Assembly (NCBI GenBank): GCA_009840525.1
Contig: VXNP01000141.1
Coordinates: 1 to 64,000, forward strand
From: Gammaproteobacteria bacterium
Lineage (GTDB): Bacteria; Gemmatimonadota; Gemmatimonadetes; Longimicrobiales; Gaopeijiaceae
Direction: 5' to 3'
Length of the DNA: 64,000 nt
Shown here: positions 1,359-6,621 of the stretch, piece after piece
Position numbering within the stretch: the stretch's first letter is position 1
Layout of the letters: each line of letters starts with the position of its first letter
Notes under the pieces: generated by a model
Seen by the model: only the letters and a program-made list of their open reading frames with translations
What the model was told of the DNA's origin: nothing
The model's database searches: none
Program-made: the position numbers and the translations under genes

Positions 1359-1826
1359 TCAGTTCGAGTGCATCTTGAAACTCCACCGCCGCGGACCGGA
1401 TCGCTTCCGGTTCGAGTCGGTCTCCTCGTCCGGAGCGGCCGCCGGCGCCTCGGCAGGCTGTTGCGCGGGATCGGCATCCTCAGGAAGGGACATCGTCTCG
1501 AGTGCCGCGTCACGCGTCTCGTATACGGGGATGATCTTGTCGAAGCCGCTGAGCGTGACGACCGCGGCAATCGCCGCCGGGAGCCCGCACATCCCCATCG
1601 CCTTACCGGACCCGCGGAATCTCTTGGCCAGCACCAGCAGGACGCTCAGGCCGGCGCTGCTCATGTAGGAAAGATCGCGCAGGTCGAGGAGGAGGGCTCT
1701 CTCGTCCGCCGGCACCTCCGACACCAGGGCTTCGCGGAATGCCGCGCTGCTCACGCCATCGACACGACCCGCAGGCGAGGCGATCAGCACGCCATTCATC
1801 CTTTCCCAACTGACCTTCAGGTCCAT
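1359..1826 (-). CDS. STAS-domain protein (anti-anti-sigma factor type)
   Basis: 155-residue cytoplasmic protein. Residues 1-105 form a STAS domain of the SpoIIAA/RsbV type: an N-terminal strand with [13 protein letters not shown], then [20 protein letters not shown], where the MSSAGL loop is the place that carries the phosphorylatable serine in this family. The last 45 residues are an Ala/Pro/Glu-rich tail without predicted structure. In known systems such proteins are phosphorylated by an RsbW-type kinase and release a sigma factor when unphosphorylated. No partner kinase is adjacent, but the permease at 4885-6621 carries a degenerate RsbW-like tail. The gene is divergent from the cysD operon and lies 110 bases upstream of the quinoprotein gene on the same strand. 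The partner is unknown. Confidence 0.85.
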
Positions 1827-1858
1827 GGGCCTACCCGGGCACTTGCGTGGTATGGGAA

Positions 1859-1886
1859 TTCAGCGCGCACTACGACAGGATACTAT
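1859..1886 (+). promoter_or_regulatory. Possible promoter for the cysD-cysNC operon
   Basis: TTCAGC (1859-1864), a 16-base spacer and TACTAT (1881-1886) form a weak sigma-70-like match in the divergent gap. It would give a leader of about 170 bases before the preferred cysD start at 2063 and would argue against any start further upstream. The -35 box is poor. Confidence 0.3.
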
Positions 1887-2062
1887 CGCTGCAAGCTGCA
1901 GGCTTCGTTACCCGGTGTCAACACGCCTCGGGTTCACCTCCGGATGATCTACCCACGGCGCGGAATCTCCCGCCGGAACCAGTTGAACCGGTACCGGAAC
2001 GGTGGTACGATCCCGTCGCCAAGCGTCTCCGGGACGAATTCCACGATGCAATCTGCGAGAAC

Positions 2063-3001
2063 ATGAGCGGGAAGGGCGAGAGCAGCGGCCGCACCGACCG
2101 TTCGGGGGCCCACTGGCTCTCGGCGCTCGAATCCGAGGCCATTGAGATCATCCGCGAAGGAGCGGCGACGGCGGCCCGACCCGTCATGCTCTATTCGATG
2201 GGCAAGGACTCGTCGGTGTTGCTCCATCTGGCCCGCAAGGCGTTCTGGCCCGCGCGCCCCCCCCTTCCCCTGCTGCACATCGACACCACCTGGCAGTTCC
2301 GGGAGATGATCGCCTTCCGCGATCGCATGGCCGCCGAGGCGGGCGTCGAGCTGCAGGTGCACGTGAACCGGGAGGGCCTGAAGGCCGGCGCAGACCCGTT
2401 CGCCGACGGATCGGAACGCTATGCCGACGTGATGATCACCGAAGCGCTGCGACAGGCACTGGACGCGGGGAAGTACGACATCATCTTCGTGGGTGGGCGG
2501 CGGGACGAGGAGAAGTCGCGGGCGAAGGAGCGGGTGTTTTCCTTCCGCGATGCGGCCCATCAGTGGGATCCGAAGGCCCAGCGTCCAGAGCTCTGGAGCC
2601 TGTACAACACGCGTGTCCAACAGGGTGAATCGCTCCGGGTCTCGCCCCTCTCCAACTGGACCGAGGCCGATGTCTGGCGCTACATCGCGGCGGAAGGGAT
2701 CCCGGTGGTTCCGTTGTACTTCGCGAAGAAGCGCCCGGTCGTCGAACGTGAAGGCCAGTGGATCATGGTCGACGACGAGCGCATGCCTCTCGAGCCCGGC
2801 GAGGAGCCGCGGCTGCTTCCGGTCCGCTTCCGCACCCTGGGATGCTATCCGCTCACAGCTGCCGTCGAGAGCGGCGCCGACACCCTGGAGGCGATCCTCG
2901 CCGAGACGCTGGCGACCCACGATTCCGAACGCCGGGGACGCCTGGTGGACCATGACGGGGACGCCTCCATGGAACGCAAGAAGCGGCAGGGCTACTTCTG
3001 A
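2063..3001 (+). CDS. cysD: Sulfate adenylyltransferase subunit 2 (CysD)
   Basis: Small catalytic subunit of ATP sulfurylase, which adenylates sulfate to APS with help of GTP hydrolysis by CysN. The protein is 312 residues, close to the usual 300. Near the N-terminus is the PP-loop region [18 protein letters not shown]; mid-protein is [20 protein letters not shown], and the C-terminus ends RKKRQGYF, all standard for CysD. The reading frame is open back to 1847, but homology begins at [17 protein letters not shown], so ATG 2063 is chosen; it has only a weak purine-rich site upstream. Its TGA stop shares one base with the ATG of the next gene (TGATG), so the two subunits are probably translationally coupled. 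Confidence 0.95.
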
Positions 3002-4845
3002 TGGCATCCGGTCCGGCGGCGGTGCGACCGCCCCTGCGCTTCGTCCTGTGCGGCGCCGTGGACGACGGCAAGAGCACCCTTCTCGGCCGGCTGCTCTGCG
3101 ACTGCCGGCAGGTCTTTGCCGATCAGATGCGCAAGGTGGAGGAGGATTCCCGGCGCTGGGGAACGCGGGGCGACCAGGCGGACCTGGCGCTCCTGGTCGA
3201 CGGTCTCCGCGACGAGCGCGAGCAGGGCATCACCATTGACGTCGCCTACCGCAGTTTCGAGACGGCACGGCGCCGTTTCATCGTCGCCGACGCGCCCGGG
3301 CACGAGCAGTACACCCGCAACATGGCGACCGGCGCCTCGAACGCCGAGCTGGCGGTCGTTGTGGCCGACGCCCGCAAGGGAATCCTGCCCCAGACCGCCC
3401 GGCACACCCGTATCGCGGCCATGTTCGGGATCCGGCACGTGGTCCTTGCGGTCAACAAGATGGATCTGGTGCTCTGGGACCGGAGCATCTTCCAGGCGAT
3501 CGCGGACGAGTACCGGTCACTGGCGCGGGATTCGGGCGTCGAGAACCTGCGGATCACGCCCGTATCTTCGCTAACGGGAGAGAATCTCACCCGCCGCCGC
3601 GATTCGGCCGGGTGGTATGCCGGCCCGACGCTGCTCGAGCACCTGGAGACGGTGGACGTTGAATCCTCCATCGAGAGGGAGTCCTTCCGGATGTCCGTCC
3701 AGTACGTCAACCGCCCCGACCCCGATTTTCGCGGCTACAGCGGCCGAGTGGCGGCCGGCAGGGTCGCCGTGGGGGACCGCGTGCACATATCCCCGTCGGG
3801 AGCGGAGACCGTCGTGGAGTCGATCGTGGTCTGGCAGGGGGCCCGGGAGCGGGCCGAGCGAGGCGACTCGGTGACGCTGACCCTCGCCAACGAGGTGGAT
3901 GTGACGCGCGGAGACGTAATCGCGGAAGCCTTCAATCCGCCGGGCGTGACGGACCAGTTCCAGGCCAACCTGATCTGGATGAGCGACCGCCCTCTGGTGG
4001 TCGGCCGCTCCTATCTGCTGAAGATCCATTCGCGGGAAGTGACCGCGACCGTCACCCGCATCAAGTACCGGCTGGACGTCTCGCGGGGAAGCAGGCTGGC
4101 GGGCGCCACGCTGAACCTCAACGACCTCGGCACGGTCAACATCGCGACCAACCGCCCGATCCCGTACGCCCCCTTCGAGCAGTATCCGAGGCTGGGCAGC
4201 TTCATCATGATCGACCCGATCAACAACGAGACTGCAGGCGCCGGCACCGTCAACTTTGCACTCAGGCGCGCGTCCAACATCCGCTGGCAGGACTTCCACG
4301 TCACCCGCGAAGCCCGCCAGGAACTCAAGCTGCAGCGGGCCCGGTGTCTGTGGCTCACGGGACTCCCGGCATCGGGCAAGTCCACCATCGCCGACCTGCT
4401 CGAGAAGCGCCTCCACGCGGAGGGTCATCACACCTACCTCCTTGACGGCGACAACGTCCGCCACGGACTCAACCGGGACCTCGGCTTCACCGAGGCCGAC
4501 CGGGTGGAGAACATCCGCAGGGTGGCCGAGGTGGCCCGACTGATGGTCGATGCGGGGCTGATCGTGATCGTGTCCTTCATCAGTCCCTTCCGGTCGGAAC
4601 GGGCTTTCGCCCGCGGTCTGTTCGCATCCGGTGACTTCAACGAGATCTTCGTCGACGCGTCCATCGAAGTCTGCGCCGCGCGCGACCCGAAAGGACTGTA
4701 TGCCAGGGCGATGAGGGGCCAGCTCAGGAACTTCACCGGCATCGACAGCCCCTATGAGCAGCCCGAGAACCCGGACCTTCACCTCGACACCGAGAAGCTG
4801 GGGCCCGAGGAGTGCGTGGAGTCGATTCTGCGGCTGCTGGTCTGA
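3001..4845 (+). CDS. cysNC: Bifunctional sulfate adenylyltransferase subunit 1 / APS kinase (CysNC)
   Basis: 614-residue fusion of the ATP-sulfurylase GTPase subunit with APS kinase, giving PAPS from APS. The CysN part (about 1-435) has the G1 loop GAVDDGKST at 18-26, DAPGHEQY (G3) and NKMDL (G4), followed by EF-Tu-like beta-barrel domains. The APS kinase part (about 440-614) has its own P-loop GLPASGKST at 454-462, LLDGDNVRHGLNRDLGF, and FISPFRSER with the conserved serine. Both catalytic halves look intact. With cysD this completes sulfate activation; no PAPS reductase, sulfite reductase or sulfate permease of the SulP or CysTWA type is in the window. The stop is 39 bases from the convergent end of the permease gene. 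Confidence 0.95.
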   Translation: MASGPAAVRPPLRFVLCGAVDDGKSTLLGRLLCDCRQVFADQMRKVEEDSRRWGTRGDQADLALLVDGLRDEREQGITIDVAYRSFETARRRFIVADAPGHEQYTRNMATGASNAELAVVVADARKGILPQTARHTRIAAMFGIRHVVLAVNKMDLVLWDRSIFQAIADEYRSLARDSGVENLRITPVSSLTGENLTRRRDSAGWYAGPTLLEHLETVDVESSIERESFRMSVQYVNRPDPDFRGYSGRVAAGRVAVGDRVHISPSGAETVVESIVVWQGARERAERGDSVTLTLANEVDVTRGDVIAEAFNPPGVTDQFQANLIWMSDRPLVVGRSYLLKIHSREVTATVTRIKYRLDVSRGSRLAGATLNLNDLGTVNIATNRPIPYAPFEQYPRLGSFIMIDPINNETAGAGTVNFALRRASNIRWQDFHVTREARQELKLQRARCLWLTGLPASGKSTIADLLEKRLHAEGHHTYLLDGDNVRHGLNRDLGFTEADRVENIRRVAEVARLMVDAGLIVIVSFISPFRSERAFARGLFASGDFNEIFVDASIEVCAARDPKGLYARAMRGQLRNFTGIDSPYEQPENPDLHLDTEKLGPEECVESILRLLV

Positions 4846-4884: not shown

Positions 4885-6621
4885 CTACCTGTCCACGCGA
4901 ATCGTGACGATATCCGCGTTGTGATACTGCTGGTGCTTCACGGACGACGCGTAGTGGCGAAGGAGGCGCAGCGACAGGTCGCGCTTGCTCTCCAGGTCCG
5001 GGATGTCGCCGAGCAGGACGATCTGGTTCTCCAGATTCCCGGCGTCGGTCGCCGCGCTGAACTCGATAATGGCTCCCGTGCGGTCGTTGCGCGCGACGAC
5101 GCGCAGCCGCCGGTCGCCGGCGTGGCTCCCGTCCTCCTCCTGCCGGGCCAGGCTGAGCAGCGCTTCCTCCGAGGCCGCCCGGAGGCGCCCCCTTCCCTCG
5201 CCGTCCCACCCGTACTTCCCCGCGAACCCGACCACGAACTCGTCGAGGGCGCGAAGGCTGTCCGGACTGAGCGGCATCTCCACCCTTCGCCGCCGGGGCC
5301 CGGTCAGCTCCAGGAACAGGTTCAGCAGGAGGATAGTCACCCCGCCGGCTGTCAGCCCGTTCGCCAGCATCTGCGCGGCGGGCGTGCCCAGGTGCTGCGG
5401 GAATACCGCCTGGAACTGGATGCCGACGCCGACCCAGAAGGAGAATCCCGCGATCAGCGAGCTGTTGCGCCCTCCGTCCGCCTGGAAGACGACACGCATG
5501 CCGCGGGCAAAGACGAGCCCGATGACGACGACAATAAAGGCCCCCAATACGGGTCCCGGGATGGACAGCACGAGGGCGCTGATCTTGGGAACGAACGCAA
5601 GGCCGATGAAGATGGCTCCGATGTAGACGCCCACCCTCCTTGCCGCCACGCCGATGCCCTCCGCCATGCCGATGCCGGCGGGATAGGGCCAGATGGGCAG
5701 GACGCCCGCGACCCCCGACAGCAACGTGCCCGCGCCGCAGGCGGCCACGGCGCCCTGGACCCTCCGGAAGTCGATCGCCTTCTGTTCGCGCCGCGAGAGA
5801 CGCTGCATGACGATGGCGTCGCCGATCTGCCTGACCGTGATGACCAGGGTGACGAACAGAAAGGCCGGCAGGAGCAGCCAGAAGCTCGAATCGAACCCTG
5901 CGTCGAGACGGGGCAACGCCGTGGCGGGGATCCCGAACCAGCGGGCCTCGCGCACCGGCGTGAGATCGAAGATCCCGAAGAGAGCCGCCGTAGCACACCC
6001 CAGAGCGATCGCGACCACCGGAGTCCAGGCTCGCAGCAGTCGGGGGGCGCGCAGCATCAGGGCAAGCACGGCGGTCGCCGTGACGAGCGTGACGGTGGGC
6101 CCTGCGGCCGCGGGCGCCTGCGGGGGAACCTCGATCAGCAGCGCGAACCCCATGGGCATCACCGTGACCGAGATGAGCGCCATGAGCGTGCCCGACACCA
6201 CCGGCGTAATGATTCGCCGGAGCAGGATCAGGCGGGCCGCCAGGCCGAGCTGGAAGAGCCCCGAGGCAATCACCAGCACGGCGAGCAACGCGGGACCGCC
6301 CGCGGCCAGCGCCAGGACGGCGACGCCGATCGAGGCTCCGGAGGCTCCCATGACCATCAGGTTGGCGCTCCCCACTCCCGCCACTCGCCGCGCCTGGACG
6401 ATGGTCGTCAGCCCGCCGATGACCATGCTGGCGAAGATGGCCCAGGAGAGGTAGGCGCCCGTCAGATTCGCCGCGCGCGTAACGATTGCGGTGACCACGA
6501 CCACGGGCGTGCATACCAGCACGGCCACCTGCAGCCCGAGGATGAACGAGGCGGGATGCGGCGGCGGCTCGTCGGCCGCGTAGCGGAGGCCTCCTGCCGG
6601 CTTTCCGGGGCCGGATTCCAC
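4885..6621 (-). CDS. NCS2 (nucleobase:cation symporter-2) family permease with C-terminal RsbW-like tail
   Basis: 578-residue inner-membrane transporter. Residues about 25-440 hold 12-14 hydrophobic segments with the NCS2 layout: LGLQ in the first helix, a GLTTIVQARRVAGVGSAN stretch, and a second half with FVPKISALVLSIPGPVLGAF. The region that in xanthine/uracil permeases reads like PNTTYSENIG is here PIWPYPAGIGMAEGIG, and the QH of helix 1 is QV, so the substrate is probably not a classical nucleobase. Residues about 450-578 are soluble and follow the order of an anti-sigma-type GHKL ATPase: SEEALLSL in place of the N-box EEALTN, and a final LSLRLLRHYASSV-(x)n-DIVTIRV. The N-box Asn is absent, so ATP binding is doubtful. 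The GTG start at 6621 has AGGAG eight bases upstream. Convergent with cysNC; a sulfur-compound substrate is only a guess. Confidence 0.8.
   Translation of the reverse strand: MESGPGKPAGGLRYAADEPPPHPASFILGLQVAVLVCTPVVVVTAIVTRAANLTGAYLSWAIFASMVIGGLTTIVQARRVAGVGSANLMVMGASGASIGVAVLALAAGGPALLAVLVIASGLFQLGLAARLILLRRIITPVVSGTLMALISVTVMPMGFALLIEVPPQAPAAAGPTVTLVTATAVLALMLRAPRLLRAWTPVVAIALGCATAALFGIFDLTPVREARWFGIPATALPRLDAGFDSSFWLLLPAFLFVTLVITVRQIGDAIVMQRLSRREQKAIDFRRVQGAVAACGAGTLLSGVAGVLPIWPYPAGIGMAEGIGVAARRVGVYIGAIFIGLAFVPKISALVLSIPGPVLGAFIVVVIGLVFARGMRVVFQADGGRNSSLIAGFSFWVGVGIQFQAVFPQHLGTPAAQMLANGLTAGGVTILLLNLFLELTGPRRRRVEMPLSPDSLRALDEFVVGFAGKYGWDGEGRGRLRAASEEALLSLARQEEDGSHAGDRRLRVVARNDRTGAIIEFSAATDAGNLENQIVLLGDIPDLESKRDLSLRLLRHYASSVKHQQYHNADIVTIRVDR

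Follow-up and report, generated by a model that had tools for sequence, protein, structure and literature searches.

Does the gene at positions 4885..6621 (minus strand) of the window, by which we mean the whole 64,000-nucleotide stretch analysed here, really encode an NCS2 transporter fused to a degenerate anti-sigma domain, and what could such a protein transport? Anti-sigma GHKL domains are familiar as soluble switches, and SulP transporters for their STAS tails. An earlier note on this DNA had proposed that the permease carries an altered substrate motif and ends in the kinase-side counterpart of the SulP STAS tail. We could confirm that the fusion is a real, conserved and lineage-expanded family, and the evidence on its substrate and on the role of its tail is weighed below.

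The fusion gene and its substrate site

The ORF encodes 578 amino acids from a GTG start, for which ATG stands at the same position in one ortholog (L012), and the gene is delimited by the ORF list, full-length orthologs and dN/dS ratios. It is not a chance ORF, since orthologs of the protein are conserved at 63-96% identity over the full length in about 30 MAGs, mostly titled Gemmatimonadetes or Gemmatimonadota and in some cases Candidatus Palauibacter or BD2-11. Compared with five close orthologs, the membrane part gave dN/dS ratios of about 0.16-0.21 and the tail ratios of 0.10-0.40; these values are well under 1, and the fusion gene is intact and under purifying selection. Isolate names, taken together with published ecology (PMC10469786), suggest a sponge origin for many of the MAGs. 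Records titled Gammaproteobacteria (L010, L016 and L032) carry the locus at 95-96% identity and with identical gene order, and their labels are probably wrong.

The transporter keeps the NCS2 fold, as had been claimed for it: residues 25-404 (5410..6549, minus strand) match the Xan_ur_permease family PF00860 with 119.6 bits (E=1.8e-34) against a cutoff of 27. This was the sole membrane-domain match in the Pfam search, which returned neither PF00916 nor a STAS domain for the protein. The nearest NCBIfam model is that of the PbuX-type xanthine permeases (TIGR03173), at 175 bits and far below its cutoff, and with phmmer the membrane domain aligns to UraA (8omz) with E=2.6e-9. The substrate site of UraA is formed by E241, H245 and E290, the triple alanine mutant of which served as a negative control (PMC11362169), and the TM8 glutamate coordinates the substrate directly in both UraA and UapA (PMC8298490). 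In the phmmer alignment, in which the 8omz chain is numbered with an offset of one, UraA Glu241 corresponds to Arg264 (5830..5832, minus strand), His245 to Asp268 and Glu290 to Ala315, and both Arg264 on TM8 and Ala315 on TM10 are invariant in 28 aligned orthologs. Ala315 lies within the TM10 substrate motif PIWPYPAGIGMAEG (residues 309-322; 5656..5697, minus strand), which does replace the PNTTYSENIG-type motif as the earlier note had read it. The Pro, Tyr and Gly framework of this motif, shared with UraA, PbuX and UapA, is retained in the window protein, whereas the TM8 Glu has become Arg, the TM10 Glu/Gln Ala and the TM1 His Val.

NCS2 proteins usually have Gln-His in helix 1. In sequence and family alignment Gln31-Val32 (6526..6531, minus strand) stands in its place, within LQV at residues 30-32, so the QV reported earlier is also there. 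The altered substrate site is thus real, and it is larger than first described, the position of the TM8 substrate glutamate being taken by an arginine. A pocket that has gained a basic residue in place of an acidic one speaks for an anionic substrate. The idea that this arginine occupies the same place as that of the SLC26 transporters was rejected, since their conserved arginine is on TM10 and not on TM8 (PMC8298490); an anion site at the TM8 arginine would be analogous to the SLC26 site at most.

The C-terminal tail

Where the tailless relatives seen here end, the window protein adds a folded cytoplasmic tail of about 139 residues (residues 440-578; 4888..5304, minus strand). An AlphaFold model of this tail, built from 28 natural orthologs, reached a pLDDT of 73.8 and a pTM of 0.71, and its 19 best PDB matches in Foldseek were all chains of UsfX, RsbW or SpoIIAB complexes (E 4.6e-8 to 1.8e-4, with a TM of 0.71 for the best match). 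The full-length model was poor (pLDDT 44) and was used only for the order of secondary structure in the tail. Direct sequence searches of the window tail were negative: neither the window protein nor its tail alone gave a significant tail match in Pfam or NCBIfam, a PDB sequence search with tail profiles gave no match, and the tail profile, when compared by hhalign with 24 local HATPase_c_2 proteins, scored no better than shuffled columns. The GHKL assignment consequently rests on the fold comparison and on the Pfam and NCBIfam matches of other family members. Against PF13581 (HATPase_c_2) the window tail itself remained below cutoff (14.2 bits, E 0.046), whereas the tail of a paralog in the same genome (L002) scored 29.6 bits, above the cutoff of 27.4, and at a loose threshold 17 of 26 family tails matched. 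The NCBIfam model RsbA_anti_sig (NF041045) matched 6 of 20 diverse tails (best E 2.9e-5), in L002 over model positions 183-299 of 303, with scores far below the 210-bit cutoff and with the rest of the RsbA model unmatched. The predicted fold, together with curated HMMs on family members, supports a GHKL/RsbW-like domain, and the anti-sigma order of elements suggested for the tail, which was to be checked on just such a model, holds up on the same evidence.

Alignment with the canonical HATPase_c_2 proteins of the phylum places SEEALLSL (residues 484-491; 5149..5172, minus strand) at the N-box, where the earlier note had put it, with Glu486 kept and the N-box Asn, correctly described as missing, replaced by Ser490. 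The loss goes further, as the tail has neither the G1 motif DxGxG nor the glycines of G2 (GRG): the helix equivalent to the G2 box, RDLSLRLLRHYASSV (4939..4983, minus strand), aligns with GGRGxFLMRxLxDEV of the canonical proteins with its glycines gone. The closing LRLLRHYASSV...DIVTIRV is present at the C-terminus. In every family member read, the N, G1 and G2 boxes are degenerate, with Ser, Leu or another residue for the N-box Asn. Given the known roles of these motifs, ATP binding by the tail is unlikely. The tail therefore resembles RsbW, SpoIIAB and UsfX in predicted fold (TM about 0.7), element order and N-box Glu, and differs from them in its missing N-box Asn, G1 and G2 glycines and in its fusion to a transporter.

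Distribution and gene neighbourhood

The survey for the same fusion that had been suggested revealed a lineage-wide family and not a single odd gene. Seven tailed NCS2 proteins and one tailless PF00860 protein are encoded in the window's genome, and the tail occurs in 49 of 395 Gemmatimonadota genomes. All 49 belong to two families (f1 and f7), and a single genome yields up to ten tail matches, a few of the matches being fragments. For bacteria outside Gemmatimonadota, the one scan of a genome collection had a single sequence as query and recovers close relatives only. A plasmid collection searched for the tail gave no match, and among open-licence papers we found no description of an NCS2-anti-sigma fusion. 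In a tree of the membrane parts, the tailed proteins form one group relative to the tailless PbuX-like outgroups, and the first-branching tailed lineages have the PNTTY motif and a Glu on TM8. The clade of the window protein (SH-aLRT 100) sits on a long branch and has Arg, in one case Lys, at TM8; according to the family alignment and the tree, the WPY motif in TM10 is specific to it. A third tailed group has Arg, Lys or Gln at TM8 and other motifs. Many paralogs keep PNTTY and an acidic TM8 residue (Glu/Asp), and the tailless outgroup has Glu.

Three other loci of the family may be recorded here. L008 (G000:C26:26619-26708) is probably a decayed copy: only 30 residues remain, and they match nothing but the end of the tail (E=6.9e-13). 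Two tailed paralogs have Lys at the TM8 site, and the genes near them were named from reading the sequence only: L006 lies between ABC polyamine-type and TRAP-type transporter genes (L109:5047-11893), and L007 shares a contig with a dihydropyrimidinase-like gene (L110:3511-4947, L110:10991-12835).

In the window, the transporter gene is convergent with cysNC (sulfate adenylyltransferase subunit 1/APS kinase; 3001..4845, plus strand; NF004035, 884.8 bits, above cutoff), from which 39 bases separate it. Before cysNC comes cysD (sulfate adenylyltransferase subunit 2; 1847..3001, plus strand; NF009214, 478.6 bits, above cutoff), the true start of which is probably nearer 2060-2117, the HMM match beginning at residue 72-91 of the longest ORF. 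Next to it is a stand-alone STAS protein of the anti-sigma antagonist type (1359..1826, minus strand; PF01740, E=4.6e-16; TIGR00377 above cutoff), a candidate partner of the tail. When related loci were compared, every contig of the window's genus that extends far enough retained this block of STAS, cysD, cysNC and transporter; in one genome (G078) the transporter and the STAS-cysD pair are on different contigs. In the Palauibacter-type family (f7, g73) cysD and cysNC are directly upstream of the transporter on one strand, and the order cysD-cysNC-transporter was seen in eight loci (L021, L024-L026, L029, L034, L035 and L038), with no STAS gene near the f7 loci. A STAS gene is directly downstream of the ortholog in L022, L036 and L039 and close downstream in L030, and within the window's family the clusters examined contain STAS genes.

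In the second genus of that family, the transporter often follows a DmdA/GcvT-like gene, with STAS next in several genomes. In three genomes of this genus (G061, G127 and G151) a distance of about 11-25 kb on one contig separates the transporter from cysD, cysNC and STAS, and cysD is likewise linked to the transporter in four more (G173, G233, G247 and G299); in other assemblies the genes are on separate contigs and give no information on linkage. The cluster between cysD and the transporter is conserved and holds STAS, class-V aminotransferase (SufS-like), GcvT-like, two FAD amine-oxidase-like and DmdA-like genes (L184:3106-13299, L187:2614-12075). Some clusters have a small conserved domain (like VVxENIxDIAxxxIEKYEYxN...RRKxxLxxMF) fused to the end of STAS, and near others it is encoded on its own (copies at L187:2614-3264, L187:12137-12835, L015:5802-6146 and L030:10503-10769), the stand-alone copy in L015 having no Pfam match.

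Across genomes, cysD was found in 36 of 38 with the WPY clade and in 4 of the 11 that bear the tail but lack the clade (Fisher p=1e-4, ignoring relatedness), clade membership being called from the profile score (best E below 1e-60) and not from each sequence. One genome (G392) was counted as clade-positive after its sequence was read; otherwise the figures are 35/37 and 5/12 (p=3e-4). The PNTTY paralogs of the window's genome carry the same tail and have no sulfur or STAS neighbours, so the function of the tail is not tied to sulfur.

Substrate and role of the tail

The explanation that we tentatively prefer, at a little short of an even chance, is that the gene encodes an NCS2 transporter of an anion, probably of a sulfur compound, with a dead anti-sigma tail that docks a regulatory protein, plausibly STAS. 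Under this explanation an NCS2-fold (SLC23-type) elevator transporter would have given up nucleobases in favour of an anion, most likely a sulfur-containing one that is consumed or formed around APS/PAPS metabolism (sulfate, organosulfate or sulfonate). The RsbW/SpoIIAB-like GHKL tail, having lost its ATP site, would now be a cytoplasmic docking or regulatory module, to which the small STAS proteins from the same clusters plausibly bind, and the protein would resemble in its action a SulP transporter whose STAS part comes in trans. We infer the anionic substrate, the STAS binding and the regulation of transport; docking of STAS in trans is the leading guess, since a STAS protein is the natural partner of anti-sigma GHKL domains (PMC8256260) and, in the window's family, STAS genes are found alongside the clade. 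From those same clusters, the proposal that the tail is a kinase-side counterpart of the SulP STAS tail gains weight. SulP/SLC26 proteins with STAS, including AtSULTR4;1, are comparable in their related 7+7 inverted-repeat membrane fold (PMC8298490, PMC11362169), in a C-terminal cytoplasmic domain drawn from the world of anti-sigma partner switching, and in the sulfate-gene context. They differ in that the window tail is the anti-sigma GHKL side, with STAS encoded separately, and the membrane part is NCS2 with its basic residue on TM8 and not TM10. The most elaborate form of the proposal, in which an NCS2 transporter of an inorganic or organic sulfur anion is regulated in trans by stand-alone STAS on the dead GHKL tail, as a split mirror image of SulP-STAS within a lineage-specific expansion to at most about ten differently tuned copies per genome, is rather unlikely as a whole.

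Several observations count against the anion reading. The window's genome also has a SulP transporter (its one PF00916 match, on contig C10 and not C101), which would make a sulfate role redundant. SulP is likewise present in 18 of 19 genomes tested, and the idea that the fusion protein is the sole sulfate transporter was rejected on these grounds. No CysT/CysW-type permeases above cutoff were found. Also against it are the f7 loci with no STAS nearby and the DMSP-demethylase-like and GcvT-like neighbours in the second genus; the substrate could be an osmolyte or an organosulfate. In most genomes tested, the PF01507 search found CysD alone, with no second member such as PAPS reductase (CysD was the only PF01507 protein in G045, G098, G059, G127, G056, G072 and G060), which would fit a sulfate activation that may feed PAPS to sulfation rather than to assimilation.

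It is somewhat unlikely, to our mind, that the protein is instead a transporter of nucleobases or purine derivatives with an unusual specificity, its tail being only a folding, trafficking or dimerisation module and its linkage to cysD/cysNC historical. The proximity to PbuX-type permeases, the PNTTY paralogs with the same tail and the dihydropyrimidinase-like gene on the contig of L007 would agree with such a protein, but the residues that hold the nucleobase in UraA/UapA are gone, Arg having replaced the TM8 Glu and Ala the TM10 Glu/Gln, and the cysD/cysNC linkage persists in two bacterial families with different gene orders, the clade and cysD also co-occurring.

Transport of a zwitterionic methylated osmolyte (DMSP or betaine-like) or of its product is distinctly improbable. 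In its favour, the gene clusters with GcvT-like and FAD amine-oxidase-like genes in the second genus, where it comes directly after one of DmdA/GcvT type (390-395 bits with NF009133, against a cutoff of 410), and one ortholog follows a BCCT carrier. However, neither the window's genus nor the Palauibacter-type genus has such genes next to the transporter, the two sharing only cysD/cysNC there, and the DmdA-like protein, being below the curated cutoff, may act on another methylated compound. Doubtful to the same degree is a transceptor that would sense its ligand and sequester a STAS protein (or a sigma factor) on its tail, feeding the RsbV/RsbW network of the genome: the anti-sigma fold and the stand-alone STAS genes adjoining canonical HATPase_c_2 genes (contigs C52 and C121) speak for it, and the set of tailed paralogs, which reaches about ten in a genome and differs in substrate sites, would suit a sensor array, but no sigma factor gene is adjacent to the transporter in the window and most tailed paralogs have no STAS neighbour.

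In Gemmatimonadota that are probably associated with marine sponges, transporters of the uracil/xanthine family have multiplied while carrying a catalytically dead RsbW-like domain, and the window copy, with the nucleobase-binding acidic residues lost and sulfate-activation and STAS genes nearby, suggests a new kind of regulated anion transporter. The change of TM8 Glu to Arg would offer an evolutionary route by which the fold shared by SLC4, SLC23 and SLC26 passes from nucleobases to anions. If the preferred explanation is true, a transporter family bearing the other half of the STAS/anti-sigma pair would tie membrane transport directly to partner switching and would provide a natural test of what the SLC26 STAS tail does. 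A possible role would also emerge for a multi-copy family of the mostly uncultured sponge-associated and marine Gemmatimonadota.
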